DNA from: Tribonema minus
Lineage: Eukaryota > Sar > Xanthophyceae > Tribonematales > Tribonemataceae
Assembly: GCA_017506865.1 (NCBI GenBank)
Contig: JAFCMP010000119.1
Location: 1 to 64,000 of the forward strand
Direction: 5' to 3'
DNA: 64,000 nt
Below are positions 7,991 through 61,000 of this stretch, piece after piece. A program made the position numbers and the translations under genes. Position 1 is the stretch's first letter. Each line of letters opens with the position of its first letter. The notes below the pieces were generated by a model. It worked only from the letters and a program-made list of their open reading frames with translations. It made no database searches and was not told where the DNA came from.

Positions 7991-8485
7991 GGCGCGTTGA
8001 AGCACTGCATCTGACCAACCCTCGTCAGCATGCCAGTACTCCTTCGGCGCATCAAGCTCCGCTTGTGTTGGCAGCCGTGAAAGGCCGTCTGCGTTGCCAT
8101 TGTGCTTGCCAGATCTGTGCTGCACGGTGACGTCATACTCCATGACTCGCATCGCCCAACGCAGCAACTTGCCATTGTGGTCCCGTAGTGTAAGTAACCA
8201 CCTGAGCGCTGCTGCATCCGTGACCACCGTGACTGGGCACCCCAAGATGTATGGCCGGAAGTGGTTGAGCGACAACACCACCGCTAAGCATTCGAGCGCT
8301 GTTGCCCCCATGTTGGCGTCTTGCTCGCTGTTGAGCTTGCTGAAGTAGCCAACAACTACCTCTCTGACCTCCACCCCCTTCTCAAGGCGGCGACGTCCCG
8401 TCGTCGTGCAAGCTTGCGCTTGCGCTTCTAGCTCCGTCAGTGGCCTGAACTGCGTGAGTACACCCGCGCATGCTGTTTTGGAAGC
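7967..8485 (-). pseudogene. RNase H domain
   Basis: Gypsy-type RNase H that follows RT. Visible signatures are the first aspartate in VTDASKT, ALECLAVV with the catalytic glutamate, VVTDAAALRWLL, and the terminal RSGKHNGNADGLSR. It joins RT in a different frame: RT stops right after LPFVL at 8491 and the RNase H text resumes one base out of phase, so a single-base loss is likely. Confidence 0.88.
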
Positions 8486-8490
8486 ATCCG

Positions 8491-9435
8491 TTACAGCACA
8501 AACGGCAACGAGAAGTCTGGGTGCATGACCAGCGTGGCGCCGCACATCGCCTCCTTCAGCCGCTGGTACGCGCGTTGTCGCGTGGCATCCCACAGCAGGT
8601 GCGAGTTCTTGTCTTTGGTGAGCTCGACGATGGGCGCCGCCAGTTTACTGAAGTCTTTGATGTAGCGCCTGTAGTAATTGAAGCAGCCCATAATGGTCTG
8701 CACCAATCTCTTGTCTGGCTTGCCCCTGCTGTCTAGTGGAGGTGCCATGCCTAGCATTGCCTTCACCTTGTCAGGATCTGGTCTAGCTCCGCCCGCGCCA
8801 ACTATGTGCCCGAGAAACTTTACCTCCTCGCGGAACAGCTGGCACTTGTGTCTGGCAACGCTCATGCCGGCGGCATCAATCCTCCCCAGCACATCGTCAA
8901 GCTGCTTGATGTGCGCCTCGAGTGAATTGCTGTAAATTAGCACATCATCGATGTACACCACCGCGTGCACTCCAAACGCCTCGCCTAGCACCTGGTGCAT
9001 GAGCCGTGTGAACTGCGCCGGCAGGTTGACCAAGCCAAAAGGCGCCACCGAGTACTGTTACAACGCACCGTTGGGCAGTCGAAACGCGGTCTTGGGCTTG
9101 GCGTCCTCTGAGAGTGGGATCTGGTAGTACCCGGCCGCCAAGTCGAGCGTTGACATGACCGATGCTCCGCGCAGCTTTTGCAGCATGCCGTCTATGTTGC
9201 CAATGCCATGACTGTCGCGCTTGGTCACTGAGTTGAGTTTGCGAAAGTCAACGCAAAACCGAATCTTGTCGTTCTGCTGCACAAGTACTGGGTTGCAGGC
9301 CCAAGGGCTAGTTGAAACTTCAACATGGCCCCGTTCTAGCATCGCCTTAACCCATTGCATGATGTACTCAGCCTCCTTCTGAGCCCAATGCCTGGCCTTG
9401 TCCGCCATTGGTGCCACGTCGCCGGTATCTACATA
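8491..9435 (-). pseudogene. Reverse transcriptase, interrupted by a stop
   Basis: Two parts in one frame. 9441-9058 has the N-terminal motifs (RFCVDFRKLN, LDLAAGYYQIPL, KTAFRLPNG). 9048-8491 has PFGLVN, the catalytic YIDD (residues 32-35 of that part) and FLGHIV. They are split by a TAA at 9058-9060 where the family has a Tyr-type codon before the PFGL motif, so one base change explains it. Thumb and connection (KPDKRLVQ..MGCFNYYRRYI) are intact. The frame also breaks from the protease frame near 9435. Confidence 0.92.
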
Positions 9436-33406: not shown

Positions 33407-36400
33407 ATGAGCCTTGATGGTGGCGGAGCCAGCGCAAGTGCCGGCGGCGCGTCTTTAGGAAGCATCAGCAATTACAGCCTGAGGCTCATCAATGGAACTC
33501 CTCAAAACCCTCATTTTCAGGAGCCAGCGCAACTTGCTCTGATCAGGGATTTCGAGACCAGGGACAGCGACGCCTTCATCTGTACTTATGTGAAGAGTGG
33601 CACCACATGGACGCAGCAGATCGTCAACTTGCTCATGCACGAGGGCAGGGATCCACCGAAGGTGAAACACACACACACACACACACAACTGGCACCTCGA
33701 TGTATCTTCGTTGACGTTGAAGTTGCGTACGTGAAGACGCGATCAAGGCCTCTAATCAGGTGGCTTGTATCAGGCTGGTCTGAAAGCTGTGAAAGCGCAC
33801 TGACAGCAACTGGATCCAGCCACGTCTTCCAACAGGCCTGCGGTTGCGAACCGCACTAGCCGTAGGCTATTACGCTGAGCCACGCAATCCAGAAAGAAAG
33901 AAAGCAAGATGGAGTTGATACAGGGCAGCGGTGACGATCGGCGCTGCTGCACATGCGTGATTCCCTCATTCACTTCTGCCGCCACCATACTCTGCAGTCG
34001 CACACGGAGGCCGTGCCCTTGCTGATGGCTGCGGCGGCGGGCAGCGTGCCCATCGACCGATTTACTCATTTACTGAGTGACTCACTCTCTCTTTCACAGT
34101 CGTACACGGAGGCCGTGCCGTGGCTGGAAGCGGTGGCAGCGGGTGGCATCCTGGGCGCATTCATGCTCGGCGCACTCACTGAGTCAGTCACCGATTCAAT
34201 AACTCATTCACTGTGTGACTCGCTCTGCTCTGCAGTCGGAGCTCCATGTATCGTGGTTGAAGTTGCGTGCGGAGGCCTGACGAGGAGTTTTGAGTTGAGG
34301 CCTCTGATCAGGTCGATTGTATCAGGCTGGCTTCAGCGCTCTCAAAGCGCCCTGCCTGCCATTTAACCCTGACTGCTGTTGCAAAGTAGCCGTCGCCATT
34401 TCCGCCGAGCCCGGTCCCCTACTGCGATCGTTCATATGAGCAGTGCCACGACTGGGAATGGCGGAGAGTGGGCGGCGTGCTGCACTCTTGTCAATGCCTG
34501 GACTCATAGCCAGCACCACCTACTTTCATGACAGAAGGCCCGAAGGCCACTGCGTGACGGCTCTGCACATGCTGATTGTTTGCGACGATTGCGAATTCAA
34601 GCAACAAGGCAACGAACGTGGCCACGGGACTTGCACTCATGACCTTCTGGCTTCAAAGTGGATGGGCTTGCCCTCAGCTTGTGGCCGCTCATCGGTGCCT
34701 CGCATGGCACTTCAATAGTCAAACTTGAAGATCGTCGTGACGCAGCAGCGGGGCCTCATAGAATGAGATGCAGGCCAGAAAAAAGCTGAGGGAAGCAAAA
34801 AGCAAGCAAGCCAAGCAGAAGCGCGCACGGCAGATGAGTGCGATACAGGGCAGCGGTGACGATCGGCACTGCTGAGCATGCGTGCTCCCCTTGATCACTT
34901 CTCTTTCCACCGTACTCTGCAGTCGTACGCAGAGGCCTTACCTTGGCTGATGGCTGGGCGGCGGGCGGCGTGTGCGGCGCACTCAATGACTCAATCACCC
35001 ATGTACTCATTTACTCATTCAATATCTACTCACTTGTTGACGCAGTTACTCACAACTCAGCCCTGCTCCGCAGTCGTACACAGAGGCCGTGCCGTGGCTG
35101 GAAGCGGCGGCGGCGGCGGACAGCGTGCTCGACGCACTCCCTTGCTTACTAACCTGAGTTACTCATGCACTGAGTGACTCGCTCTCTACTTCACAGTCGT
35201 ACACGGAGGCCGTGCCGTGGCTGGAAGCGGCGGCAGCGGGCGGCGTGCTCGGCGCGCGCGAGGCACTCACTGACTCACTTATCGATCGACTCAGTTACTC
35301 ATTCTATGAGTGCCTCGATGTCTGCTCCGTAGTGGTACACGGGCCGTGTTGTGGCTGGAAGCGGCGGCGGCGTGCGGCGTGCTCGGCGCACTCACTGATT
35401 CGCACACTCATTGACTCACGTACTCATGCCGAGTGAAAAGTCATCTGCTCTGCAGTCGTACACGGAGGCGGTGCCATGGCTGGAAGCAGCGGTGGCGGGC
35501 GGCGTGCTCGGCGCGCGCGAGGCACTCACTGACTTACTTACTGATCGACTCACTTACTCATTCTGAGTGGAACGCCATTTGCTCTGCAGTCGTACACGGA
35601 GGCTGTGCCGTGGCTGGAGGCAGCGGCGGCGGGCGGCGTGCTCGGCGCGCGCGAGGCAACGGGGTGGACGCTGGAGGCCATCAACGCTGCGCCGAGCCCG
35701 CGCTTCTTCAAGACGCACGCTGTCGTTGCAGATCTGCCAAGGGGGAGGGCCAAAGGGCTGAAGGTGGGTCGTCGCCCCCTGTCAATAGCAGTAGTTAGCC
35801 TACGTCAAGCCGCGGTGAATTCATTCTTCGAGTTTGACGGGCTGGACGCTGGAGGCCATCGACGCTGCGGCGAGCCCACGCTTTTTCAAGACACACGCTG
35901 TTGTTGCGAATTTGCCGCGGGGGAGGGCCCAGGGACTGAAGGTGGGTGGGTGCCCTGTTGTGGAAGCGGTTCTGTCTACAAACGTCAGACTAAGCAGTAA
36001 TTTTGGAGTGTGTACGCATACCTCAAACTGAAGCGTGTGTGCGCGCTGCACATCTCCAAGACGCGTGATGCATTGCATCCGCCGCAGCAGATGTGCGTGC
36101 TTCAGGTCGAAGCACATCCGCCCACGTCTGAGTACATACATACTCGGAGTCGACGTAGAAAATGCAACAGTGTGGCTGCACTATGATTGCAGCTCATGCT
36201 GACGACGGTACTGTTACACAGCCAGAGCACTGTGCGTACTGCTCTGTACTGCATGTGTACTGCTGTGTTGTGTGTACTTCATGTGTACTACACTGTACTG
36301 CACCGTACTGATATGTTGTACTGGTTGTACTGCACTGCACTCGTTCCGTTGTGTGTACTGCACCCATCTGCTCTGTCATTAGGTCCCGGTGCGGCTCACC

Positions 36401-39400
36401 ATAGCAAAAGGCAGCCACTGCCTCAGCTTGGCGCTCCACATTTATTCTTCACGTCGAAGCATTGCATAATTATGAGCGAGATCTGTATTGTATATTCATA
36501 TCGTACGCCGTGATACGATTCACAAATTTTGCTTTGTATCATTACAGGTACGCCATGGTGTAATTTACGTGTGTCGCTGTGCATGCTTCCAATCACTGCA
36601 GAGCAGCTGTCAAAGTGACGCTTCCGTCTGCGTGCCCCCCCGCCCCTGCCCCCCTTGCTTCACAGGTGCTGTATGTTGCGCGAAACCCTAAGGCAAGTGC
36701 AGCGGTGGGAACAAAGCTCTGCTTAACACGCCGTGAAAATGCCATGACGGGGTGAACGAATGTCTCAGAGAGTAGACCATCAAGTAGTATACGGCAGTAC
36801 ATCAAGCAGTCCACAGCAGTACACCCTAAACCACCCAGCAGAGACCCCACAAGCCTCCGTTGCACCCAAAAATATATGACCTTTGCGGCAAAGTTATTAA
36901 CGTCCTTGTGGTTGGCAGGCTTGCGCAAGCCACACCCTTCATACATAAGCGTTGTTGAAAGAATGGCTTGAAGGTGAGTGGAAAGATGCTACCAACGCAG
37001 CCAAAGCCACCGTACGGGCATTGTGTGGCGTGGCAGAGACTCCTGCGCTCCCTACATGCCCTACTTCACAGTTGCTGCTAGCTTCAACGTCAGTCGCGTC
37101 CACCCGCCCCCCCTAACCCTACCCCTAACCTCATCCCTAATCCTACTGCGCCCGTATGCACACTGTCACCTATTGCTGGAATGTATTGGAGTACTTCACC
37201 ATCATCAGCATTCCTGAACGTTCTTCCTTGAGTGCACGGTCACCAGTGCTCATTGCTCAGCACTGCGCCATCATCAGCGTTCCTCAACGTTCTTTGTCTT
37301 CATCTCAAAAGTGCACCGTCGCCACTGCTAATTTCTTGGCACTGCACCATCATCATCATTGCCGAACGTTCTTATGTGAGTGCACGGTCGCCAGTGCTGA
37401 TTGCTCAGCACTGCACCATCACCGGCGTTCCTGAACGTCATTTGCTCACTGCGCGGTTGTCAGTGCTCAGTGCTCAGCGCCTCTCCCGCATAGAGCACCT
37501 TGGACCGCGACGCACACGGCGAGGGTTAGGGTTCGCCTAATCCCAAGTGTGCACTGCGCTTGTGCGCGGGATAGTGTTTGAGGGGGCAAGGGTAAGGGTC
37601 AGGTCCTCAAGCGCTCTTGCGACCACGCACTGTTTGCCGCCAGTGCTCGGCGTGTGGGGTTGGGCTTCTACCACAATGGGGTCAGAACAAGGTGCACTAG
37701 GACCGGGGCCAGCAGGTGGTGCACCTCGTAGCATGAGAGCTTTGGCGTGATACGCCTGTGCAAGCGACCTTTATCTGCTCATTAAGGCGCATAATGGCGT
37801 GGATGCGCTGTCTTGAAGTTGACATACTCAGCTGGAGGCGGGTCGCGGTTCAACTCAGGGTGGAGGTGACCTGACTCCAACCAGATCGTGGCCAACAGGA
37901 TGTGCCGGCCAGCCTTCACAGCCACTGTAGCGCCAAAAAACTATGAGTCAATGGCACCGCCACGAGACTCCAACAAGGGCAATCGGTCCAGCACGAGCCT
38001 GCTGACCCTAGACACAAGTTTCTAAGTGCACTCAAATTTTCAACCCTGACCTCATTTTTCTTCCATTCATGCCGGGCTGTGTGCGACAGGACGTGCTGGT
38101 GAGCCTGTACCACCACGCGCGCAACAAGCCCGACTTCAACTTCAATGGCGACATGGGCGATATGCTCGCGCACTTCACGGCCGGCACATGCGAGAACGGC
38201 GACTGGTTCAAGCACGTGCTCGAGTGGTGGGCGGAGGCCAAGAAGGTGAAGTTTGTTCGCAGCTTGTTGAAGTTTCGTGAACTTTCAAAGCAATATCCTG
38301 GCCCTGCATCACATCACTTTGCCTGCAGTGCTGGAGTGGTGGGCGGAGGCCCAGAGGGTGAAGTTTGTTCACCGCTTGTTGAAGCTTCTCAGAGCGCATC
38401 GTGAAACGCTGGCCCTGAACCACATTACTTTCTCTACAGTAGTGCCTGATGAGTACAGAGAGGTGAGGGTTAACCTAGAGAACGGCAACTGGTTCAAGCA
38501 CGTGCTGGAGTGGTGGGCGGAGGCCCAGAAGGTGGAGTTCGTCAATTTGTTGTTGAAGTTTCCCAGAACACGCTTTGAACCGCGTTATTCTCTCCGTAGT
38601 AACGCCTGATGATGTGGGCGGAGGCCCAGAAGGTGAAGTTCGTTCAAAGTGAAGTTCAAAGGTGAAGTTCATTCACTGCTTGTTGAGGTTGCTGGGAAGC
38701 ACAATGGCTAAAACCCTGGCTCTGCATCACATCACTTTGCCGAGAGTAGCGATGGATGAGCAGTCTGCAGGCGGCGTGCAACAAACGTCAGTGAATAATA
38801 ATAATAACGCACGTGAACTCGTCGTGTGCACCCGTCTGAGCGCTGCTGCATCAATATACCTGTCATCATGCGTGCGTCATTCAAATCTGCAGATGACGTG
38901 CAGCCACTGCGCAGAAGTTTCTCATGCTCCGCCTCACGCTCTGCCTTGCGCGCGCCCAGGATGCGGACCACGTCCCGTTCTTGAAGTACGTTGTTGAAGT
39001 AGAATGACTACCTAACGGAGCCGCTGCAGCGCGCCGGTCTGACAGTATGAAGTTGCGCAGACTACCTTCACGCTCGGGTGCGTAAGAATGTGACTGCGTC
39101 ACAGCTGCAGTCTCCTCCTGCAATCATTTTCCATTTTGAGAGTTGAACTCAGCCCAACGCTCATTGCGCGTGTGCATTCGAATGCGCTGCCCAGGACCCG
39201 GAGCACGTCCTGTGCTTGAAGTACGAGGACCTGATCGCAGAGCCGCTGCGCGGTGTGCGCAGCATTGCCCAGTTCCTGGGCCTGCCCCACGCGGACAGCG
39301 TGCTGCAGGCGGTCGTGGACAAGAGCTCCATAGACGCCATGCGCAAGGTGTGTATGCTTCATGATGGTTTTCAGTTGCACACAACCGTGCGCGCCTGCTG

Positions 39401-40430: not shown

Positions 40431-42090
40431 CGGCAGCGGCGCGCGGCGATGGCGGCTGCGGCAGTGCGCAGCAGCGGCGGCGGCAGCGATCAGCGGCAGC
40501 AGCAGCAGCAGCAGCGGCAGCACTCAGCAGCGGCAGCAGCGGTGCAGCAGCAGCAGCAGCAGCAGCAGCGGCGGCGACAGCGCTCGGCAGCAATGGCAGT
40601 GCTCAGCAGCAGCGGCAACAGCGCTCAGCGGTGGTGGCAGCGCTCAACAGCGGTGACAGTGCTCAGTGGCAGTGGCAGCGCTCAGTAGCTGTGGCGGCGC
40701 TCAACAGCGGCTGTGGCGGCGCACACAGCAGCGGTCACGACGGAAGTGGAGAAGCCGGTGCCGCAGCGGCGGCAGCGGCGGCGCGAGCGGCAGCGTCAGT
40801 GTTGCAGGAAGGAGTCAGTTGATGATGGGCTGGATAATAAGCAACTAGCCGCAGGAGGCCATGCAGGCTGCAGCAGCAGGTGCCACAGGGCGGTGATATG
40901 CTGCAGTTGCAACGCCCATGGCCACTGCAGCGTAGACAGCGGGCGCAGCATAGGCAGCCTCGAACGTCGCAGCTGCACACGGGGGCAGCTGCGTCAGCAA
41001 CATGGGGGCACATGTGAGCGGTGTGCACGCCCATGACGTGTGCAGCGCATGATGGCGCTATGTGCGCGTGTGTGACGCACGTGACACTATGAGCACAGAG
41101 CTTCAGTGAATGACATCCATTCACTCATGATGCATGATTTCGCAGCCAGACCTCAGACAGCGTACATGTTGTGTCTTCTGCTCGTTCCCTCGGAGGATTT
41201 GCTTGCGCCACGTTCTAATGGGTGACAGTGGTACGCGCCATCTCTGAGTGGTCGCTCATGCAGCAGGTGATGCGCAGCATGCCTGCGGCCATGACAACAA
41301 GAAAGTAAGCAATGCTGTCAACTCATTCACCGCACCAATTCTGTGTAGTCTCATTGGTCGTTGGCGTGTCAGGCCTTGTCTGCATCCAGCTTCCAGCATC
41401 AATCTTTTCAATACTGTTGTCAAGAATTTGAACTGGGTCCGAGACTTGCGAACATGGCTGACTTAAGAGCACACGGACCATTCACCATATCATAGCCTGT
41501 CACTGACCGCCTATTCACTCATCTGCTGTACTCAGAGCGTACACCGCATGAGACACGCGTCTCAGAATGGCACACTCGAAGTAAGAGGACGTAGGGGAGG
41601 ATCCCGAGATGCCATTTGGCAGCGGCGGCGTTTGAGTGGTTGTTGTTGAGACTCTTTCAGCCTGTCACACGACATGTAGATTCCGTACAGCAAGCTTACT
41701 AGTAGGTATACCATTCATCTGGGCTTTTTCGCGCCCTGAGCGAGAATTAATAAAAAGTACTTGGCGCATTACGTGTGAGTGCCAGCGCATGTCAGAGATA
41801 TGTCCGTGTATCACCTACAAACAAGGCCGAAACCTGTGAAATGGACCAATTTTATAAAAAATGAGAGCGTATTCTCAGCAAGTCGCAATAGGTCCCTGCT
41901 GCATTGCCAATTCGGCCAACTGGCAGAATTGGGGAGAATGGCGGTTGGACACCAGACAAGCTGAGCCCGCTGGCCTGACCAGCACTGTGATGTGGATAAA
42001 TCAGGGGGTGTCCAAGCCCTAGGTGCAAGCAACTAAGTTCAAGCCCTATGTGGAGCGTCACTTCCTCGGCGCCACAGCAAGTACTGCTGT
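40431..42090. other. GC-rich trinucleotide repeats and gene-free spacer
   Basis: 40431-40800 is dominated by CAG/CGG trinucleotide runs, some pure for over 20 bases. 40800-42090 has no supported gene. A minus-strand copy of the short dispersed repeat lies at about 41712-41752. Confidence 0.5.
41712..41752 (-). repeat. Short dispersed repeat, copy 2
   Basis: Minus-strand copy of the 2616-2655 segment; shares TTAATTCTCGCTCAGGGCGCG and the following AAAAAG and CCCAGATGA. Confidence 0.6.
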
Positions 42091-42095
42091 TGGCT

Positions 42096-42466
42096 TCAGC
42101 GCCTGGCGCCCAGTGACTCCCTCTGCTTATCTTTATGATATCGGGGTTCACGTAGATAGCCACAATCTCCAGTTCAGGGCCCATTATGGTGACCTTGGCC
42201 TGCATGAAAACTTTGAGATGGAGTCTCGTGGAGCTGGGTGGCCCTAAGACGGGTCTGTCTGTGGGGGGAGAGTCTTGTAGCTTTGTTTGGTATCCCTGCT
42301 AGTATGTGGGGGACAGTCGCTTGCGGGTGCTTTGTTGGGGGTGATGTGGGGGGCGGGGTGTGGCGTGCAAGCTTTGCATGCTACATCCAAAAGAGTGAGA
42401 ACAAGGCAACACACCTACAACATGGCATTTCCACAGCCACAAGTGGAATATAATAAAAGTACTGCT
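42096..42466 (+). repeat. Dispersed repeat family, copy A
   Basis: About 365 bp from TCAGCGCCTGGCGCCC to ATAATAAAAGTAC, nearly identical to 56005-56371. It is bracketed by the direct repeat AAGTACTGCTGTTGG (ending 42093 and about 42472), like a target duplication. On the minus strand an open frame includes MGPELEIVAIYVNPD, which faintly recalls an endonuclease domain, but no family can be assigned. Confidence 0.8.
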
Positions 42467-46914: not shown

Positions 46915-49900
46915 TTACAGGGGGAGCGCGAGCGTGTTGACGTTGCCCAGGTCTTGGCACGCCTTCTTGACGCGCGCGACCATGGTCTCCTCCGCCTTGC
47001 GCAGCCACACGCGCGGGTCGTAGAACTTTTTGTTGGGCTTGTCCTCGCCGTCGGGGTTGCCGATTTGGCCCTGTGACGTGCCACGCACATGTACACGCGC
47101 AGAATGAGTGCCGTTGAGGCATTGATCCCAGTTGATTTGTGTAGTACGCATGTAACACAATAGTGCGCCGTACCCATGAGTCTGTTGTGAATGTACATTT
47201 TGTGGGAGTTGTCCTCGCCGTCGGGGTTGCCGATTTGGCCCTGTGACACAGAATCCATTGCGGAAGGGTGAGTGATGGATGCAGCTTGTGAAGCACAATG
47301 CAACATGGTGCGCCATATGATATCCATGACTTTCTAAATTGAACATTTTGCTGGGGCTTGTCCTCGCCGTCGGGGTTGCGAATTTGGCCCTGCAACGCGC
47401 CACAACAGATTGGCGCGCACAGGGTAAGCGCCAATTAACTCCGGAAGTGTTTGTATCATAATGCAACAAAGTGCGCCATATCCATTGCTTTTTGAATGTA
47501 CTTTGATTGCATCTTGCTGGGCTTGTCCTCGCCGTCAAAGTTGCCAATTTTGTCCTGTGATATGCCAGAGCTCACGCACTTAGCCCGCCATAGAAGCTGT
47601 GAGTAAACTCATGCCTACGACTGCTTGGTACGTTTGCATTGCCAGACTGAAAATACATAAATATGCGCGCACACGCAAACACACAAACACACACAAGCGC
47701 GCACACATAAGAACTCGTGCACACACGCGCGTGTGCAACACACGCGTATGCGCATACATGGATACTCGAATGAATACATACATACACAATACACACATGC
47801 GTGCACGCCATCTCTCACCTGGAGGTAGCCCTCCTTGGCCTTGTAGAAGTCAAGGATGCCCTCCCAGTACGCCCACTGCGTGTCCGTGTCGACGTTCATC
47901 TTCACGACACCGGCCTGAGGGGTTGCGCATACGCACAGCAATAGAATTGGTCAATAAACAAGTTAATAAGTCCTTATAGCGTCAACCTTCGTCTTCGCCA
48001 CGCCGCTTTGCGCATGTGCACACAGCAGAAATGGTCAATAAGCAAGAGTAGTCCACATAGTGTCAACGTTCATCTTCACAACGCCGGCCTGAGGGGTTGC
48101 GCATACGCACCAACAGGAAATTAGTCAATCAACAAGAGAATCAACCAGCTTGTCCTAGGTAGCACATACCCAATAAAAATCGATAACAGGAAATTAGTCA
48201 ATCACAAGAGCATCAACCCGCTTGTCCTAGGTAGCACATACCCAATAAAAATCGATAACAAGAGTATCAACCAAAAATCGACAACGAGAGTATTAAGCAG
48301 CTTGTCCATATGATACCAATGATCATCTTCACCACATGGGCCTGAGCCTGAAACCCATTACACAGCGGCCGTAAGCCCACTACAATTACGGCAAGCAAAG
48401 ATTCGTGCAGATCTGCGGTGAGCAACGTTGTGACCAAAGCTCTAGCAGCAAAAGCTCCAGCAGCACGTCAACGTCGTTGAAGTGTGAGTTGAAGTTGTGG
48501 TGACTCACCTCAACAGCCGTCTTGATCTCCTCCTCCGTGGAGCCGGAGCCACCGTGGAACACAAAGTAGCAGGGCTTCTCCTCAGACCCTCCGAGCTGTC
48601 GCAGCAGAAAGCGCAAGACAATGCAGGAGATGGTTATTATCATTACTCACTGATGTCATAACTTGAGGTTGTTGTAGTTGAAGTTCAGCCACGTCAAAGT
48701 TCAGAACACAAAATAGCAGGGCTTTCTCCTCAGACCCTTCAAGCTGTTGTAGCAGAACGGGCGCAGGGCGATGGCGTTTTGATAGTTGAACTTCAGCCAG
48801 GGGGCCACTCTCTGAAGGCTGGAACACAAAGTAGTGGGGCTTCTCCTCGGGCGCTGTAACACACATGTGGCAGATCCGTATCCTACAGCAAATATGTGTG
48901 CTATAAGCCATGTGTACTTCTACATGGATACTTCTGCGTATCATTCTTTTTCTTCTGCTGCACGCACACTCCAGGTGCGGCTGAGGATGGCGGAGTGGAG
49001 CTGGCGTTCCCTGGCTTGTACACAAGCGTGGTACTCGCAGCGTTTTAATACACTTGATAACTACGTATATACCATGAAACACTTGTATAGGTAGGTACAC
49101 AACTCCCAGCGTAGCCTGCACACACATTGCTGCGCATAAAGGCACTTGCGGCTAACCATCCATTGTCACTTAGAGCTCTACGATCTTTTGATTCATTTCC
49201 ATAAACTCTGCAGTGCAAACGCCAGGTGCGCCTGAGAATGGCGGAGTTGAGGTTGGCATCCTCAGGCTCGCACACAAGAGCAACTCTCCGTAGCAAACTG
49301 TCACCATACATAGCAGAAACGCATCCGTGTACAGAACAGTACCCTCAAAGTAGCCCAACTCCTGGTGCGTCTTGAGAATTGCGGGGTTGAGCTGGCCATT
49401 CCCCGGCTTGAATACAGGAGATGATGCCCCACAGAAACCGTAATCCTAACTGTATGCGTGCTACTATCCATAGTCTAAACACATCCATGCACGCACCTTG
49501 CTGCGCACAAACTCCTGGTGCGTCTTGAGGATCGCGGGTTGAGCTTGACGTTCCGCAGCTTGTACACAGGGGATGACTCTCCACACAGTAACCCTAACCC
49601 TAACCCTACCCCTTACCGTAACTTCATGTGCACGCACCTTGCTGCGCAAAAACTCCTGGTGCGTCTTGAGGATCGCGGGGTTGAGCTTGACGTTCCGCGG
49701 CTTGTACACAGGGGATGACTCCCCACAGTAACCCTAACCCTACCCCTAACCCTAACTTCTTGTGCACATACCTTGCTGCGTACGAACTCCTGGTGCGTCT
49801 TGAGGATCGCGGGGTTGAGCTTGACGTTCCCCGGCTTGTACACGCCGTGCACGTTGCCAAACGCGGCGGCGATGGAGAAGTGGTCCGCGACGCTCGCAAG

Positions 49901-52900
49901 CGTCGACTGCACGCTCCAGATCTGCTCGGGCTGCGTGTAGAGCTTGTTGACGTCGGCGTGCGAGTTGTCCACGCCGTCCTCCTCGCCGCCCGTGATGCCG
50001 ATCTCCATCTCGAGCCAGATCTTCATGGGGGCCATGCGCTCAAAGTATTTCTGGGGGGGGGGGGGGGGGTGATGGGGGGGGAGGAGGGGGGGGGGGGGGG
50101 TGTTGAGCACCAAATTTGTGCATGCATAGACATATTCGATTGCTGTCGTCAACAGCATAATAAAAATGAGTTGTTCACGCCGTCCTCCTCGCCAATGAAA
50201 GTGCTAATCTCCACGAGTGTTGACAAGAGCTACATGACTTTTAAACCATGAGCCACACCTACCTATGAAAGTAGTTTCTGGCGTTTGTGACTCGAAGACA
50301 CTCAGCAGCTGTGACATCAAATCTGCCTGCTGCAACTCCCAGACAGAAAAATTCACTCTGAGTTCCCGCTTCTTGTGCTCGTGACACCACCGCCCACACA
50401 GCGGCCACTGGCTATCCCAAACCCCAACCTTAGGAACCACCCTAACCCTAAACCTTAGGGTTGGGGTTTGTCAGGTGTCCCACACAGCGCTCAGAAGCGC
50501 TGGCCAGCGTCCGCGTGCTCAACACTTTACCCTCACCCTGACCTCAAGTATACTACTACATCAAAGTGAAAGTAATAAGGACTTGCTGCAACCAGGGCAT
50601 CCGCTCGGGTCCAGCACGGACCTCAGCAACTCATGCTCTGGCTGGTGCAGCTGGGATCACAGCTTGTGCGCAGGCGGCATTTTGTTTCTCTTTACATGCG
50701 CCGTGCGCGTCTCCACAATCTCCTCTGCCACAACATTACATAAAACTTCAACCGGGCCTGCGCCTCTCCCCTTTCCCGTCGCTCAAGTCCCATATGAGTG
50801 GCGCATGTCGCGTACAGGCGCTTGTTGCTGCGCCCCCGTGCGCGATGGTGTAACTTGAACTAAAGCTTCTGCCATCCAGAACGCAGCTTGCGGGTGTTCG
50901 CGTCTCACTGTGCACCCCCAGCTCAGGTCAGTTGTTGCACTACAGCCATAATCACAACTATAACCTCAACTGCCGCAGCACACACTGGCGTTTCACCACT
51001 CATCATTTGTCCTGGTCCGCCATCTCTGTATGAACACCGTCGGCTGGAACTCCAACTTCATTTAGAACGTCAAACTTCAATAAAATTAGGTCTCTTCTTG
51101 CGCTCGTCGTCGCAATCCTCACGACCAAGATGCTCCTCAATCTCAGCTGTACACAGGTGCGCGCAAGTGCCATGTGCACTCGTCCACAACGTACGCTACA
51201 AATACGACTAAACTCATTTTACTGACTCTGGACATATCCGTGCTCCCCTTGCCGCCTCCTCCTTCCTTTACACTGCGGCAGTGCGACTAGCACTAGCTAA
51301 ACCCACTGTAGACCCACTGTCACAAACTCAAATGAACATCAACTTGACATGTACATCAACTACTCCACATCTCCTTGTCCATCTCCTCGCTCAGGCCCAG
51401 CATGTGGCACAAGAACAGCGGCTCGCAGTGTCGCGCGCAACTGCCGACTGCCCACACACGGTCAAACCTCAACTTGAAGTTCAACAAACTGACCTTGCGG
51501 GTCTTCATGTTCACATCGTCCACCTCCTTCCTTCCACACACAGCAACATCCCTAAACCGCCATGCTATAACTTCAAATGAAAATGCAACTGACCTTGCAC
51601 GTCTCAATGTTCTCCTCGTCCACCTCCTCGCTCAGGTCCAGCATGTGGCTCGAGAAGAGCGGCTCGCCGTTCTTCTCAAAGTACTCCTCGTCCGCTGCGA
51701 GCATGCCGTCAAACTTCAAATTAAACTTCAACTGACCTTGCACGACTCATAAACCTCAAGTTTGAAGTGCAAGTGACTCACCTTGCACGTCTCGATGTTC
51801 TCCTCGTCCACCTCCTCGCTCAGGTCCAGCATGTGGCTCGAGAAGAGCGGCTCGCCGTTCTTCTCAAAGAACTCCTCGTCCGCCGCGAGCATGCCGTCGA
51901 ACCACGGCAGCAGCTTCTTGGCGCAGTGGTCCGAGTGCAGCACCACGGGGATGCCGTAGTACTTGGCCATCTGGCGCACGTGCAGCGCCATGGCGACGCT
52001 CCCCGCGATCGACGCCTGCTCCTTGGGCTCCTTGTTGTTGATAGACTTGCCCGCGAAGAACGCCGCGCCGCCGTTGGAGGCCTGGCGAAAGGGGTTGCGT
52101 TGCGGTATACATTGGGGGGGGGGGGGGGGGTGTTCAGATTGCGGTCTTACTATGGTGACAGCACGGTTATTCACAGATGATAACTTTTGTTGTGATGCAG
52201 ATAAGGCTCCTTGGTGTTGATAGCATTGCCCCCTAAGAACGCCGCGCCGCCGTCGGAGGCCTGCACGGCGGAAGGAGAGGAGGGTTGCGAGGGGGGGGGG
52301 TCCAGTTGTGCAAGAAACTTCTGTTTTATATTCATAATGACAGCTGCAGGGCATCGCTGATGTGACAGTGTGTGGGTGACAAAAAGCGGCATTCCGCAGG
52401 CGTATGAGAACTGTGCGTTCAGCAACGCTGAAACGGCAAAGCATATACTGCTGGCTGCCCGCTGCTTACAATTGTTGTTGACGATACCATCAACGCTGTG
52501 ACGCTCGCGATGGTGGCGCGTAGGCGTGCGGGCAGAATTTGCTTTCAGAATGCATGTGGAACGCGCCCGAAGTGTGCGTGAGAGGGTTACGGTTGGGGTT
52601 AGGGCCTGATGGCTGGCGTTGCGATTACACTTGCAGCCGAGGCCCCCCAAAAAAAGCTCATCTGGAATCCTCCATGCCAGAGAGGCGCACGCAAAAGAAA
52701 AGGCCAGCACGCTATTCCACTACTCCAAGTCATGCACAAGTAGTGCTCCCTCTGCAGAGCAAAGTTCATTGAAAGCGTGCGAAGCGAGAGCCCCACTAGC
52801 ACACACACGCAATGGCCGCTGGAGGTTCATTTCAGATCTTGACTGCAACTAGCAGGTACTCCGTTTTCACTGCAATGGTACTGAACAAGCGCTCTGCTTA

Positions 52901-53653
52901 TTTTGCGCAACACGTCTCCGCAGCGTGTTTCCTGATGACACAGCGTCCCAGAGTGTCCAGATGCACCAAGGTGCGCCCCTGGCGCAGTGCGTACTGTTCT
53001 GTACTACTGCACTGTGCTGTGCTGTACTGTAGTGTAAGCGGGAGCTGCCACATCGCGTAGACTACTGCACGACGACGACTGTGCATTTACCATTGAAGTA
53101 AGCCTCAAAGTGCGCTCCTGTGTTTATTGCACAGTACTGCAGCGCATTTGCATGTCTAAGAGGTACACATTACACATGACTTCAAGTGTGAATCATCATC
53201 ACCTGGATGATGATGGGCGAGCCGATGGACGCGGCGGCCTCCATGACGGCATTGCACGACGACGACGACACGACGTTCACCGTACTTACTATAAGGGCAA
53301 GCCAGGTAGTGCTGTACTGTGGTTAGTGTATGGGAACAGTAGCGCACTTGGCATACTTTCAAAAAAATACTGAAGTCCAAAAATATTACACGTCAAGTGC
53401 GAAGTGTCACCTGGATGATGATGGGTGAGCCGATGGAGGCGGCGGCCTCCATGACGGCGTTGCACGACGACGACGACACCACATTCACCGCGGGGATGGC
53501 ATACCCGTGCTTCTTGGCGTGCGCAAAGAGCTTCACCACCTTGTCGCCCGTGATCACGCCAGTTCCGACCTCCTCCAAAAGGGTGGGCTGCGTCGCGTTG
53601 CGTGTGCAGTTGCGGCAGGGACATGGTGTTTCCTTAGGACAGATCCATGCCAT
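46915..53653 (-). CDS. Class II fructose-bisphosphate aldolase
   Basis: Cleaves fructose 1,6-bisphosphate to DHAP and glyceraldehyde 3-phosphate, or the reverse, using zinc. Exons in transcript order: A (5' edge uncertain, to 53411), B 52081-51782, C 50050-49772, D 48595-48509, E 47914-47819, F 47070-46915 with stop TAA. B to F are multiples of three and join in phase 0, giving 305 aa plus about 55-80 from A, close to the FbaA length of about 360. Motifs: TGVITGDKV and NVVSSSSCNAV (A), VVLHSDHCAKK with a zinc-ligand His and LFSSHMLDLSEE (B), GITGGEEDGVDNSH and HGVYKPGNV (C), FHGGSGS (D), KMNVDTDTQWA (E), GQIGNPDGEDKPNKKFYDPR (F). The ATG at 53651-53653 opens the frame of A, but a splice acceptor near 53593 or an upstream targeting exon is equally possible. 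Every intron carries exon-edge copies. Confidence 0.95.
47205..47560 (-). repeat. Three copies of the start of aldolase exon F
   Basis: The exon start (CACAG|GGCCAAATCGGCAAC..., GQIGNPDGED) recurs upstream in the intron near 47208-47245, 47357-47393 and 47524-47560. Protein text stays close (GQIGNPDGED, GQIRNPDGED, DKIGNFDGED), acceptor AG kept in most. Spacing is about 150-170 bp. Confidence 0.92.
47640..47800. repeat. CA/CG-rich simple sequence in aldolase intron
   Basis: Degenerate ACAC/GCGC and ATAC repeats of about 150 bases just downstream of exon E on the minus strand. It produces long His/Cys/Val-rich artefact frames on the minus strand. Confidence 0.8.
48060..48345 (-). repeat. Copies of the start of aldolase exon E
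   Basis: The exon E start with its acceptor (GGTTGCGCATACGCAC flank, CCTCAG|GCCGG...GTGAAGATGAACG) recurs near 48060-48110 and, more decayed, near 48318-48345. Within the same intron a 72-bp unit (AGGAAATTAGTCAATCA...) is duplicated at about 48113-48258. Confidence 0.85.
48710..48850 (-). repeat. Copies of the start of aldolase exon D
   Basis: The text CAG|CT..GAGGGTCTGAGGAGAA (L.GSEEK) recurs upstream at about 48714-48757 and partly at 48822-48850 (PEEKPHYFVFQ). The acceptor is kept in the first. Confidence 0.85.
48966..49730 (-). repeat. Five copies of the 3' end of aldolase exon C
   Basis: The exon end (KPGNVKLNPAILKTHQEFVRSK split as KPGNVKLNPAIL and KTHQEFVRSK, then GTATGT) recurs in the downstream intron, with copies whose HQEF text begins near 49651, 49510, 49358, 49215 and 48966. 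Identity falls with distance: the nearest are nearly perfect, the farthest keep about 70% of bases. CCCTAA-type repeats sit between the nearest copies. Confidence 0.93.
49135..49190 (-). repeat. Dispersed repeat shared with 59453-59515
   Basis: Minus strand GAATCAAAAGATCGTAGAGC followed by TCTAAGTGACAA and GTTAGCCGCAAGTGCCTT matches the plus strand at about 59453-59515, apart from a five-base insertion and a few changes. Family unknown. Confidence 0.7.
49585..49760 (+). repeat. Interstitial CCCTAA repeats
   Basis: Two short CCCTAACCCTAACCC clusters (about 49589-49618 and 49728-49757) within the aldolase intron C-D, each beside an exon C copy. Similar clusters lie near 50417-50470, 59130-59166, 61903-61922 and 63046-63065. 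Confidence 0.85.
50053..50100 (-). promoter_or_regulatory. C-homopolymer polypyrimidine tract before aldolase exon C
   Basis: On the minus strand, two long C runs directly precede the acceptor CAG at 50051-50053. Similar C runs precede exon B (about 52112-52130), sulfotransferase exon 6 (about 39815-39870) and the exon at 58560. They take the place of the usual U-rich tract. Confidence 0.7.
51374..51712 (-). repeat. Two copies of the 3' end of aldolase exon B
   Basis: The exon end (KNGEPLFSSHMLDLSEEVDEE, then NIETCK and the donor) at 51782-51890 recurs at about 51595-51710 (nearly perfect) and 51374-51430 (CEPLFLCHMLGLSEEMDKE, decayed). Period about 180-240 bp. Both lie in the intron B-C. 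Confidence 0.93.
52215..52263 (-). repeat. Copy of the start of aldolase exon B
   Basis: GCAG|GCCTCCGACGGCGGC...ATCAACACCAAGGAGCC matches the exon B start (ASNGGAAFFAGKSINNKEP) as ASDGGAAFLGGNAINTKEP, with acceptor, about 180 bp upstream of the real one. Confidence 0.92.
52264..53197. other. Aldolase intron A-B interior
   Basis: No coding text recognised. Contains TGTACTG-type simple repeats near 52980-53040 and a TTAGGG-like patch near 52585-52605. Confidence 0.5.
53198..53283 (-). repeat. Copy of the 3' end of aldolase exon A
   Basis: Matches 53408-53493 and encodes the same residues (VNVVSSSSCNAVMEAA through SIGSPIIIQ) with the donor GTGATG. Period 210 bp. No acceptor or 5' half is present. 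Confidence 0.94.
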
Positions 53654-53780
53654 TCATATTGATGAAACACGCATTTATGCCAGTTCCGACCTCCTCCAGT
53701 GCATTGCGCGCGCATTTGCGGCGGGAACACGGGAGTTTTAGGTCAAATGCATGCAGTGCGGAGTTGCGGCAGGGTGTTGA
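53554..53780 (-). repeat. Copies around the start of aldolase exon A
   Basis: The text ...CGCAACTGC.CACGCAA...TTGGAGGAGGTCGGAACTGG at 53554-53625 recurs at about 53682-53732, and a third fragment (GCCGCAACTCCGCACTGC) is near 53752-53775. This makes the true 5' edge of exon A hard to place. Confidence 0.8.
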
Positions 53781-55794
53781 ATTTTTGTTGGTCAAAATCA
53801 TAAAAGACACGTGTATGCTGTTTTGGAGAAGGTAATGCCGAGGACGGTGGTTGTGTAAAAAGCGCACATGGCAGGGCGTTGGAATATTTGGTTTTTTGAA
53901 AACATTGAAAGATGCATTTGCCGTATGCAAAGGAAGATGTGCTAAGGATGGTTGTGCGTGAGAAGTGCGCAGAGAGCTGGACAGCCATGTCGGCAGCAAA
54001 TGGAATTGCAGCAGTATCCTCCAATCGTGTGACTCTGCAGCACCAATTTTAGGCGCAAGTGGTGACATCGCCATGGGTACTTGATCACTAGCAGCCATGC
54101 AGCAACCTATGAGTCCTTGCGAACAGAGAAGGGCATACCCACGTTTTTCTAAGGTCAGATGCTGTCTAATAACGCAACCAGCCTCGTCGTGTGTGCAAAT
54201 GCCAACCGGCAAACCTGCGAGCAACTGGGCACTACTACAGCGCACACGGTTTGGTGTCGTGTAACATGCAAGGTATTGCATCTAGGCCCTCCCAGGCCGG
54301 GTGTCTTGACCGGACTCGTGGAGACGTCGGCCTCTCAGCATGGCACACCGATCTCAGTCAACTTGTCAGCCACAGTACAATGGGAAAGCTGAGAATCGAC
54401 GAATCCATCTGGCTTGTATATCCGAACCCATACATAGCAAACGAATGATAACATGCGCGATAGGGAGAGAGAGTTTCCGGCTCTAGAACAGATTTGTAGA
54501 CAGACAATGCGCCGACGAAGGCCGATTGCCAACTGCACGACAAAATGACGATGTGAGGAACAGAAGTACAAGAGCACTCGCTGGACAATAAAATGTACTT
54601 GTGCTACGACAAGGCAGAAGCGTCTGGCTAGGCAGCAGCTTGTCACGAAGCAGGACGTTCTGCCAGCAGCAAGACAGGCAGCGGAACCAAGAGCTCGAGA
54701 GTAATCTACATGGTTCCAGACATGTGACAGGCTAGCGCCACTGCTGGACGGTGAGTTTGCCGGGGATCACGATGCAAAAGCCGGTGCCCTCAAAACGGGG
54801 AGTTCCAGGGCTGAGAAAAGGGCTGTGCCGTACGCCTCTGGCACAAGTGGAAGACCACATGCCGGAAATTGGTACACGGAAGCTTCTTTGAGGCAGATGT
54901 AAGCTACAGACAGCCGGGCGCACGGCGCACGGTGTGGCCTTGGATCTTCCGCACATGATTGTTTGGAATCTCTAGAAGATATGCCCCGAAGCCGGAGAGC
55001 TTGCGGCAAGAGCCAGCGTTTTGGGAGCGTAAGCAGCGGCGAGGCACTCACCATTTCGCTGTTGACGGGTGTTCACGTGAAAGCTGCTCCGCGCCGTGTG
55101 TGTGTGTGTCTGCTTTGAGTCGATGCAAAAGGGGCTCGTCACTCAAGTGACTCGTGGCAAGGTTACTCATGGGTATTACTCACACTCACAGGTTTATTCG
55201 CGAGTCTCACCAGGGTCAATGATGGTAGAAAAAAACTCTGAGCTTCGCGGCGCTAGCCCACAGATCCGTGGTGTTGCAGTGTGAGTCTCGGACACTTGCT
55301 GCAACAAGGCATGGATCGCGAGAAACGGGAATTGAAAAGGAAAAAGCGCCACCATGCAGGTGATGAATGATACCTGCTGCTGAGAGGGCTGCCACTAACG
55401 GTGAAGAATTGCCAAAGCGTGCATGTACCAATGCCGTAACATGCGCGCTCATGTACTGTGCAGGATATGCGTGCACTGTATTTGACCGCGTTCGAGAGCA
55501 ACTACTTGTCCCTCTCGGACTTACAAACATGCCGTCTCGTTTTCACAAGTCACTGCAGCCCTGCAGCAGCAGTTGCTGGAATGCTAGGCTTTGCATAAAT
55601 CATACTCAGGGGACCTCTGACAAGCTGTGTAGCACGCACAAACGTGAAGCTGATGATGCACTATAACGGGAACTTGAACTTCCACAGTGGGAAGAATCAA
55701 AATCACACTCTAAGTTTTTGCTACTGTACATTTTGAAAGCGCGCCTGTGGGTGTCATGTATCGCAATCCAAACGTTGATACAGGCGGCGGTGAC
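53781..55794. other. Gene-free region
   Basis: No supported gene; an unseen upstream aldolase exon could lie here. Frames of 70-215 residues overlap on both strands without known motifs. Confidence 0.35.
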
Positions 55795-55935
55795 GACATG
55801 GCTGTCCGTGGAGCTGGGTGGCCCTTAGAAGGGTCTGTCTGTGGGGGGAGAGTCTTGCAGCTTTGTTTGGTATCCCTGCTAGTGTGTGGGGGACAGTCGC
55901 TTGCGGATGCTTTGTTGGGGGTGATATGGGAGGCC
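55795..55935 (+). repeat. Dispersed repeat family, partial copy C
   Basis: Matches the middle of copies A and B (TGGAGCTGGGTGGCCC... to TTGTTGGGGGTGAT), diverged by several bases, and sits only 70 bases before copy B in the same orientation. Confidence 0.85.
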
Positions 55936-56004
55936 CGGTGAACCACCGTCCCGCTCATCAAGGAGGCGATGCTTTGCTTAGTTATATAGCCTTTCTTTCT
56001 AGCG

Positions 56005-56371
56005 TCAGCGCCTGGCGCCCAGTGACTCCCTCTGCTTATCTTTATGATATCGGGGTTCACGTAGATAGCCACAATCTCCAGTTCAGGGCCCATTATGGTG
56101 ACCTTGGCCTGCATGAAAACTTTGAGATGGAGTCTCGTGGAGCTGGGTGGCCCTAAGACGGGTCTGTCTGTGGGGGGAGAGTCTTGTAGCTTTGTTTGGT
56201 ATCCCTGCTAGTATGTGGGGGACAGTCGCTTGCGGGTGCTTTGTTGGGGGTGATGTGGGGGGCGGGGTGTGGCGTGCAAGCTTTGCATGCTACATCCAAG
56301 AGTGAGAACAAGGCGACACACCTACAACATGGCATTTCCACAGCCACAAGTGGAATATAATAAAAGTACCC
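56005..56371 (+). repeat. Dispersed repeat family, copy B
   Basis: Almost identical to 42096-42466 over about 365 bp (a three-base gap and a few changes). It ends in ATAATAAAAGTAC. No target duplication is obvious at this copy. Confidence 0.88.
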
Positions 56372-58035: not shown

Positions 58036-61000
58036 ATGGACGAGCTGACGCTGCTGGCCGCGGAGATCCTGGCCGACGAGGAGCGGGGACTGGCAGCGCG
58101 GTGAGTGTCATCGCTTGAACTGTGACGGTACACCTCGAGTATGGTGTACTCCTCGTGCTGGGGTGACAGGTTTTTCCCGGTGTGGCCGGAGTCCCGTACT
58201 TTGAAGACGCAGCACCCTGGCGAAGCCCAGGCGCTCAGAGCAGCAGGCGAAACGTGCATGCACTCTCTTTCGAAGCAGGATTTACCGTGGTAAGCATGCC
58301 AGTCGTGCAGCGACGCAACCTTACCTAGACTGATCTGTCTGACTCCTCCCTGAACAATCTTCAACCAACTGCCCGTATACATTGTGGATCACTTGTTTCT
58401 TTTGTTGCTCCTACTGTTCTTCGTTTGGTGGCATCTGCTTTCCTGATTCGACGTCAGTACATTGGTATCATTGCTAAGCATGTGCCCGATCCGGCCAGAG
58501 ACTGTACTGAGCCACGAACGTGGCCCGTGTCCCCCCCCCCCCCCTCTCGCGCCAGGCGTCTGCAGGGGAGCGCAGGCGTAGACTTGATGGCAGCGCTCAG
58601 GGTCATCAAGGGCTCCAGCGACATCACGCGCGACAGGCACATTGTGAGTTGAGTTGGTATGTGTGGGTGGGCGTCAGTAGGTATGTATGCAAGACGATAC
58701 GCAAGGGCAGCGCTGGAGGTTGTTTCCAGGGCGCCAGCGACATCACGCGCGACAGACGCGTTGTGAATTAATGTGCGTTGTGGCGTTTGATGAAGGCAGT
58801 GGGTGTGCGGGTATGCAAGTGCTGCCGGTGATGCGTGGGCAAAAGCGCTGATGCTGCTGATGGAGACGGCTGTTGCCGCACCGATGTCGTTCGTTTGCAT
58901 GTGGTCTTCTGCGGTACATGCTGCGGATAGACGGGAAACCAGAGTCATAACTCATCTACAATGCTGGTGCAGAATGTTGGAAATAAAATAGTATTTTTTT
59001 CGGGGGGGGGGGAGTAGGAGTAGTTTGTGCTGGAATCTTGAGTCAGATTGTACGATGCATCATACCGTGAAGGTTCTGCAACGCACCTTGCCGCTGCGGT
59101 GCCGCCTCGAAACGGACCGCTGTCACGGACCCCCTAACCCTAATTGTGACCCTAACCCTAATCCTGAGCACTGTCACGGAATCGCCCGCCTGCTGCAGCA
59201 GCTGCAGGAAGCGGCCAACCCCGCGCAGGCCAGGGGCCTCGTGCCCGTCGACAATGACCCCAACAGCGACAGCAAGATCGACGGTGATGACGTGTCGGCC
59301 GCGCCGCCTGCGCCCCCTGCGCCCCCCGCCCCCGTCGACTTGGATGAGCAGCGCATGCACCAGCAGGGGGTCCGCCGAACCTCAAGGCTCCGCCAGGTAG
59401 GTAGCACGCAGGTGCTTATGCCTGGTAGGCCGGTTTTCATCGACTCACTGAAAACGAATCAAAAGATCGTAGAGCTCTAGGTGACAAGGGATCGTTAGCC
59501 TAGCCGCAAGTGCCTTCCACCAATAACCGTGGTCGCCGCTGCTGCAGCAATTGGCCACGAGTCAAACACTACCACCATATCCACCAGTCAAAAAGGCTAC
59601 TGTGTTCAAGCTTTATACTAGCTCATAGGGTTCCCTCCAGGTCCTGTGATCAATAACATGTGCCAGATACGTGGGTGCTCCCGCGCAAGGTACTGGTGGT
59701 GCTTCTTGCTGAATATTGATGGGGCTCTACCGGGAGCGTGCAGTCAGTGGCGACCTCTTATTAGGCCACTTCCTGCCTTGACGCCTTTTTAAAAATTAGT
59801 TAGCTCGCCGCCCTCTACCAGATATTATGCTGGTACTTGGCGCGCAAGCCGCTCCTCATGACAGTGTAGCTCATTGGCCTTCATCAGGCATTCATGTGCC
59901 TACCAGCGTTAGCCTCCTGTGTAGGGGGCGCACTCACACATGAGCCTTCACCAGCCATGTGTGCGCCTGCCTCTCAGTTGGCCACTTGTCGCCCCAAACG
60001 CGACCTACCAAGCCTCCACCGGGCAAGCGAGTTCTCAGCGCCTCGTACAGTACTTGGTAAACCACTGCTCGCCGACACGCCAGCGCAAGCCTCATGCTCA
60101 ATCACAAATCAGAATTGCCACAGATGCCCCTCAACTCTCCAACATCAGGTTGTGCCCACGGTGCAAAGCACTGCGGCGACCCTGAACACCGGGCATGTGC
60201 GTATTCAGGAGCATCCTTGACTCTCTGCAGCATTGCGCACGTACCGCCTGCAACCGCAATCATGCATACGCGCTCTTCTGCCACGTCTGCAACTGGTGTT
60301 ACCCGCTTGCCACCATAGGCAGCAGCTGCCACGCCCTCTTGCTCACATGGCCCTGACTGCCGCCGCTGCACATGCGCCTGCCGCGTGCTGTCACAGGAGG
60401 ACGAGAGGCAGCACGACGCAGAGGTGAGGCGAGCTGTCGCGCCAGGGTCGTACCCAACAACTCGGAGGCACTGGCAGGCTCATTTTCAGAGAGCCCTGCT
60501 GCTGCTCAGGTCGCAGGCGCGCGCAGCCGGTGATCAACAGTCCCCCATGCAACACAACTCTTGACTGATTGGTACTGCACGCTGAGCGCTGTCGTGATGG
60601 CATTGCACCTTGTCCACGCATGCAAGAGCCGCCCCAGCAACCGCTTCTGCTGTCTGCATTTTGATCCCGTGGAGGTCAAGTCAGGCGTTGAGCGCCATGG
60701 CACGAGTGCCGGTCATTCTAATGGCAATGCTCACACCAGCACCACCGCGCGTTAAGCACTCGTGTGTTTGCCATGTGGCTGCGCCCTCGCAGCCCCCATT
60801 TCAGTAGCCGCCTCATGCGGTGATGTGCATGCGCCGCTCGTCCATGCTCGTCCGTGTTCCATCACGTGCGGGCACAAACCACGCCTCGCTGTGACGCAAC
60901 GTGTTGCTCGCGCACGAGTCCCGTGTGCACTGGCAACCATGTTGAGTTAGGTTTGGGGTTGCGCCCCCCTGCAGAGCACTGCCGCAGCAGGCCCGGTCAA

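Follow-up and report, generated by a model that had tools for sequence, protein, structure and literature searches.

Exon-edge copies in the introns of an aldolase gene and other genes of Tribonema minus are consistent with repeated tandem duplication across splice sites

The introns of a class II fructose-bisphosphate aldolase gene of the xanthophycean alga Tribonema minus, together with introns of many other genes of this alga, carry copies of the adjacent exon edge that have the appearance of neutral remnants left by recurrent duplication across splice sites. The gene lies on the minus strand of the analyzed window, the first 64,000 nucleotides (nt) of contig JAFCMP010000119.1 (assembly GCA_017506865.1), and we use the term decoy for an intronic copy of the adjacent exon edge. 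Our survey of 53 introns, with 106 exon edges, identified 61 decoys on 28 edges in 22 introns. At the threshold used, copies in direct orientation were present on all 28 edges and inverted copies on none. For 24 exons, the introns on both sides were surveyed; the donor edge recurred downstream in 11 of these and upstream in 0, while the acceptor edge recurred upstream in 6 and downstream in 0. Copying also faded with depth into the exon (72 edges), with 24 cases at 0-45 nt, 8 at 45-90 nt, and 1 at 90-135 nt, and 60 of the 75 exon-containing matches crossed the splice site, the other 15 stopping short of it. Direct, adjacent-only copies that fade with depth are what duplication across a splice site is expected to leave, rather than the insertion of exon pieces from a distance. 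The proposal in the initial annotation, that tandem-type duplication had occurred repeatedly across exon-intron borders, is thus supported in many genes.

The aldolase, in which the pattern was first noticed, was recognized by its match to PF01116 (E 3.9e-84). Its exons, read from the sequence on the minus strand, are exon A (53411..53587; 5' limit uncertain, donor at 53411|53410), exon B (51782..52081), exon C (49772..50050), exon D (48509..48595), exon E (47819..47914), and exon F (46915..47070, including the stop codon). When spliced, they give a protein 100% identical to the annotated T. minus protein P0002 (319 amino acids), which covers 88% of the spliced product and begins within exon A. 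Both P0002 and the annotated protein of a paralogous gene, P0055, span the junctions used here and skip every copy. The paralogue (locus L011; contig C542, 10001-20000) has 75% amino acid identity to the aldolase and exon-edge arrays of its own. As the two genes share at least four intron positions, the introns at these positions are older than the split between them. In the region 53411-53750, the start of P0002 corresponds to an internal methionine of exon A, and the aldolase gene model is probably short at its 5' end because the homologues P0003 and P0005 start upstream of this residue. Inspection by eye suggests one more acceptor-side copy of exon A near 53670-53700.

Self-comparison revealed decoys with a splice motif on the donor side of exons A, B, and C and on the acceptor side of exons B, D, E, and F, exactly where the initial annotation had claimed them. 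On the minus strand, as for all decoys of this gene, the donor-side decoy of exon A (53199..53282) consists of 80 exon nt and 4 intron nt at 94% identity, and that of exon B (51588..51714; 121 + 6 nt) reaches 96%, with two older donor-side decoys of exon B lying within 51370..51528 (shifts 288 and 429). The five copies described after exon C were all found, at shifts of 134 (49629..49709), about 275 (49488..49568), 428 (49357..49415), about 568 (49215..49280, an older copy that matches other decoys), and 820 (48968..49024). On the acceptor side, exon B has one decoy (52205..52263, 90%), exon D a proximal (48702..48762) and a distal one (48820..48855), exon E one (48051..48141) along with weaker copies at 47970-48012 and 48304-48346, and exon F three, numbered 1 to 3 (47197..47254, 47346..47403, and 47511..47568). 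No copies of the donor edges of exons D and E were found in their introns, and the acceptor edge of exon C yielded nothing but a weak 26-nt match upstream of the exon (50168..50193), the source of which lies 63 nt inside the exon. Long poly-G runs on the plus strand (poly-C in the aldolase sense) at 50053-50100, 52110-52130, and 52290-52301 adjoin acceptor sites and decoys; these are perhaps polypyrimidine tracts or products of slippage.

The occurrence of decoys beyond the aldolase was assessed in a first set of 36 introns (27 kinesin, 5 aldolase, and 4 paralogue), enlarged to the full set with 17 introns of CCT chaperonin genes. The aldolase and its paralogue are the discovery loci, and the kinesins and CCT genes were picked by protein family. 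The 20 kinesin regions, part of a longer list, were chosen for several exon matches, which favors many or long introns, and 27 of their 34 junctions were kept (score of at least 4.5). The five CCT regions sampled contributed 17 of 22 adjacent exon pairs, 3 being left out for want of a junction and 2 for a low score. In the first set, the match to the edge's own intron exceeded that to every control intron for 16 donor and 18 acceptor edges. At least one such edge was present in 25 of the 36 introns, which excludes chance as the source of the matches, in line with the initial annotation. Decoys were present in 5/5 aldolase, 3/4 paralogue, 10/27 kinesin, and 4/17 CCT introns, so the claim that the process is shared by many genes also stands; the CCT count becomes 2/13 without locus L045 (C5), which had shown a copy before selection, and the kinesin share, about a third, is the fairest figure for prevalence. 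In random-region controls, a local copy was detected in 8.7% of 886 tiles, and in 12.3% of 3909 tiles from loci L011-L032. The copy nearest to the exon, often the first of an array, lay 79-710 nt away (median 166.5; 28 edges), with units of about 80-300 nt and up to six copies per edge.

Two further claims of the initial annotation were borne out in part. Identity falls with distance for exon C as described; over 15 arrays, this was a weak tendency only, the nearer decoy being the more similar in 38 of 61 pairs and the nearest decoy the best in 9 arrays against 5.2 by chance. The process can accordingly be called shared, while its description as directional is weakly founded, as the age order along arrays is a mere tendency. 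The suggestion that the copies drive intron growth agrees with a link to length, introns with decoys having a median of 1110 nt compared with 591 nt for those without (p = 0.0003) and the number of decoys rising with intron length (Spearman 0.58). Cause and effect are not separated by this correlation, since longer introns also offer more room for repeats.

The differences between exons and decoys are those of a neutral copy beside a constrained exon. Over 61 decoys and 3296 aligned nt, the mismatches were distributed as 80/75/153 among codon positions 1/2/3, and 137 of the 308 (44%) were silent. The neutral expectation, which we derived from a 24% silent share of random changes, is a split of about 1:1:2 with 39% silent, whereas coding constraint on the copies would give far more silent differences. 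Protein-coding decoys were considered on account of the third-position excess and rejected, as the 2:1 ratio is that of a neutral copy next to a constrained exon. All 14 indels classified in the first set (52 decoys) shift the frame, none being a multiple of three. Splice dinucleotides were intact in 29/34 donor and 16/19 acceptor decoys, with 28.6 and 15.1 expected from exon identity; together, 45 were retained against 43.7 expected, a count confined to the 53 decoys (of 61) that extend as far as the junction and leaving out the other 8. As far as this splice-site test shows, decoys are neither protected nor purged, and the suggestion that they act as decoy splice sites is unsupported.

The exon-derived parts of the copies were retained far better than the intron-derived parts. 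Similarity falls beyond the splice motif, with 8 of 14 young donor events ending at +3 to +8. By sensitive anchored alignment, many decoys proved to have an intron flank homologous to the first part of the functional intron, although far more diverged than the exon part (mean z 3.66; 60 decoys). Among the 33 decoys without strict intron homology, 16 had z > 1.64 and 17 did not, and a diverged homologous flank was seen in 9 of the 15 with exon divergence of at most 10%. Profile alignments with lenient scoring gave an intron identity of about 0.75 against 0.735 for unrelated introns and were not used as support. In the third surveyed intron (#4) of kinesin locus L014, a decoy 533 nt inside the intron matches the exon at 66/66 nt while the flanking intron differs by 24%, and this decoy may be regarded as the best single hint of exon-templated conversion.

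A neutral simulation with a frozen exon, one duplication per gene, and uniform ages gave a ratio of splice-site-spanning to intron-only repeats of 0.54-0.65. The observed ratio was 2.1 for all repeats, 8 at >= 85% identity, and 11 to 0 at >= 90%, or 1.5, 3.4, and 5.5, respectively, when intron pairs derived from exons were counted as intron-only. The spanning excess over simulation was therefore 2.7-4.0 fold for all repeats, 2.0-4.1 fold at >= 75%, 2.9-5.2 fold at >= 80%, 6.1-14.2 fold at >= 85%, and 9.5-19 fold at >= 90%, the lower figures being those with exon-derived pairs counted as intron-only. The more similar the repeats, the larger the excess, so the main trait of exon-derived copies is that they stay similar; they need not arise that much more often. 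The simulation thus upholds the view that more than uniform local duplication is at work, the excess residing largely in how similar the copies stay.

The explanation that we favor, and in which we place about half of our confidence, combines tandem duplication across splice sites, neutral decay, and a frozen exon reference from which copies are occasionally refreshed. In genes of this alga, tandem duplications would arise repeatedly, their period being roughly 80-300 nt. Those wholly within an exon would presumably be lost, and those crossing a splice site would survive, as the copy attached to the exon is still spliced while the other turns into intron. The intronic copy, comprising an exon tail with its donor or an acceptor with its exon head, would then be a dead exon edge subject to neutral decay, and each event would lengthen the intron by one unit. 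Selection would freeze the attached exon edge except at silent sites, so that exon-derived copies lose similarity more slowly than repeats shared by two stretches of intron. The frozen exon may also remain a suitable partner in unequal exchange or gene conversion, and either process would occasionally refresh the exon part of a decoy and leave the flanking intron parts drifting apart; we infer that such refreshing is the simplest cause of the similarity excess. The duplicating molecular event and the exchange are our proposals, put forward beside the observed direct, adjacent-only copies, their neutral codon pattern and splice-site retention, the length correlation, and the step in similarity.

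Several observations weigh against this explanation. The 17 of 33 flanks that lack homology even by the sensitive test, including those of the young decoys L016 D 180 (z -2.8) and L014 D 233 (z -0.7), are what unrelated filler would give. Where strict intron homology exists, divergence is near plain neutral decay, at 0.086 for exon and 0.141 for intron parts (19 functional-decoy pairs), and the same holds between decoys (0.132 exon, 0.174 intron; 11 pairs). Mismatches within decoys were not clustered, half-converted patches of the kind left by gene conversion were looked for and none found, and decoys within an array sometimes differ from the exon in the same way; exchange therefore cannot be frequent everywhere. 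As spanning events exceed the simulation 2.7-4 fold even with all detectable repeats, a real preference for splice sites may exist, and the simulation itself carries the caveat that arrays were not modeled. More tentatively, the favored explanation may extend to a state in which exons are permanent master copies that keep renewing, within their introns, the dead images of their edges, a concerted evolution anchored by purifying selection. Introns would then lengthen chiefly at their ends, and the spliceosome, faced with numerous tandem splice sites of near-perfect form, would have to pass over them; exon definition, or recursive splicing at AG|GT copies, might be the means.

A rather unlikely alternative is that splice junctions are hot spots of break repair. 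The two ends of a staggered break would lie in the exon and a short way into the intron; fill-in and joining with filler DNA would then leave, at each event, an exon-edge copy that stops at the splice motif. The frequent stop of donor-side homology at +3 to +8 would suit this, as would the persistence of the spanning excess at all thresholds, the 17 decoys with no flank homology by either test, and the spacer of exon A, the only one tested, which is single-copy in the genome. Telomere-type TTAGGG repeats, which have been linked to break repair in mammals, as scars, in excerpts of two papers (PMC7215372, PMC2246262), occur in 18 of the 53 introns and are denser there (48 GGGTTAGGG in 42.7 kb against 14 in 78 kb). 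However, introns without decoys hold such repeats at no lower frequency (27 in 19.2 kb) than introns with decoys (21 in 23.5 kb), and the supposed filler is diverged homologous intron in 16/33 decoys (9/15 at exon divergence of at most 10%). The staggered break with unrelated filler was downgraded on this account, as about half of those decoys adjoin diverged homologous intron.

Slightly less probable is plain neutral tandem duplication anywhere in introns, with edges conspicuous only through the selection-frozen exon. The divergences by codon position, at splice sites, and in decoys with strict homology are all near neutral, and intron-only repeats do occur (15 at E <= 1e-5); nevertheless, the simulated ratio lies below the observed one at every identity level, and the frozen-exon simulation disfavors uniform neutral duplication as the sole cause. 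We regard as improbable that the decoys are functional and kept by selection as spare or competing splice sites, as points of recursive splicing, or as splicing enhancers. AG|GT, the form required for a recursive splice point, is intact in 22/34 donor decoys, the exon part is better retained than its flanks, and third positions account for most of the differences in the ten youngest decoys that lack strict intron homology (2/5/16 at positions 1/2/3), a subset that leans the opposite way to the neutral result. Against this, GT and AG are retained no better than the neighboring exon nucleotides, every classified indel disrupts the frame, and both annotated aldolases skip all copies.

Copying and pasting of exon edges via RNA, template switching, or a mobile, introner-like element is very improbable: the exon-derived parts appear copied with an end near the splice motif, but the absence of inverted and far-side copies among the surveyed edges disfavors it, as does the single-copy state of the one spacer tested, although some edges score up to 80 against introns of other genes. 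Similarity between the aldolase and its paralogue and among kinesins could explain such cross-gene scores, and a check for an introner-type family, based on 8-mers and that one spacer, found the intron-enriched 8-mers to be mostly telomere-type or simple. An assembly artefact is scarcely credible, given that the copies are not simply identical to the exon but diverge from it by 0-20%, contigs extend up to 1.9 Mb, and the pattern recurs in unrelated genes, even if this judgment is made from the assembly alone.

The telomere-type repeats merit a description of their own. The introns that contain TTAGGG/CCCTAA repeats belong to loci L013-L045 and to the aldolase of the window (e.g., 49590-49620, 49728-49760, and 50440-50465), and the repeats are about six times denser in introns than in random loci and the rest of the window. 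One of 12 contig ends begins with 43 CCCTAA units in 300 bases, and TTAGGG looks like the telomere repeat of this alga. In the 5' half of introns, the G-rich strand of most clusters coincides with the sense strand (15 vs 3 clusters), which is not so in the 3' half (5 vs 8; Fisher p = 0.02). Instead of marking repair, the intronic repeats could serve splicing.

Elsewhere in the window, the initial annotation had reported the same pattern at 58.7 kb, in the sulfotransferase gene, and in the 28.6-kb gene. The first of these was confirmed by a donor-side decoy (58725..58769, plus strand) with 87% identity to the exon edge 58606-58650, the donor being read by eye. For the sulfotransferase gene, the confirmation extends to the presence of local repeats, also within an exon-bearing frame; in this region they include a tandem array with a period of about 134 and 4.6 copies (35063..35658, plus strand) and a copy (38478..38562, plus strand; 86%) of 38192-38276, part of an open frame with a sulfotransferase match. 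No recent duplicate of this gene that could be used as an "empty" control was found in the genome. The 28.6-kb gene showed two tandem repeats only (29803-30025 and 30228-30372), which could not be tied to exon edges. Retrotransposon-like frames with matches to an integrase core (PF00665) and a reverse transcriptase (PF00078) occupy 5222-9057 on the minus strand. Two minus-strand open frames at 41855-42298 and 55713-56207, the first of which has no Pfam match, share identical first 60 residues and are probably one repeated element.

The lengthening of introns is usually invisible, as its traces decay. Here, one end of the duplication is an exon frozen by selection, and events therefore remain readable in about a third of the surveyed kinesin introns (10/27). 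This provides a direct means of measuring duplication rate, decay, and exchange around splice sites, as well as a natural experiment on how the spliceosome chooses one site among several near-identical ones.

Related processes are described in other systems, as judged from titles, abstracts, and excerpts of the papers cited here; intron growth by repeated break repair in Daphnia and tandem genomic duplication come closest. In Daphnia, the direct repeats of neo-introns have been ascribed to repeated staggered double-strand breaks that passively lengthen introns; the repeats at exon ends measure 4-12 bp, and internal repeats mark new introns (55/90, compared with 100/617 older ones; PMC4202315). 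The T. minus introns likewise contain direct repeats, including repeats of the exon edge, and passive growth through repair events would be common to both, whereas the units in T. minus are about 80-300 nt, include whole splice sites, number up to six per edge, and lie in established introns. In addition, 213 introns from many taxa have been described as having direct repeats of 4-30 bp close to their borders (PMC11782384). Intron gain has been reported to occur by tandem genomic duplication (PMC3443670), with cases in Drosophila (PMC2891723), a route that similarly involves a tandem duplication copying a splice motif; there, however, duplication of an AGGT exon segment creates a new intron, while in T. 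minus the duplicated splice site already exists and its copy joins an existing intron. The fill-in of staggered break ends yields small tandem duplications (PMC8355091) and is thus a known source of short direct duplications, although in that source it is not tied to splice sites, and its role as a mechanism in T. minus is conjecture. Tandem duplication also underlies mutually exclusive exons (PMC6071210), which resemble the present arrays in the repetition of exons and intron elements within one gene; those exons are alternatively used, whereas the T. minus copies are truncated, often frameshifted, and skipped in the annotated aldolases. Among the matches listed from titles and abstract openings of open-licence PMC papers, there was no report of exon-edge arrays in Tribonema or any other alga. 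The kind of process is known, and what differs here is the length of the copies, their recurrence, the inclusion of whole splice sites, and their spread in established introns.

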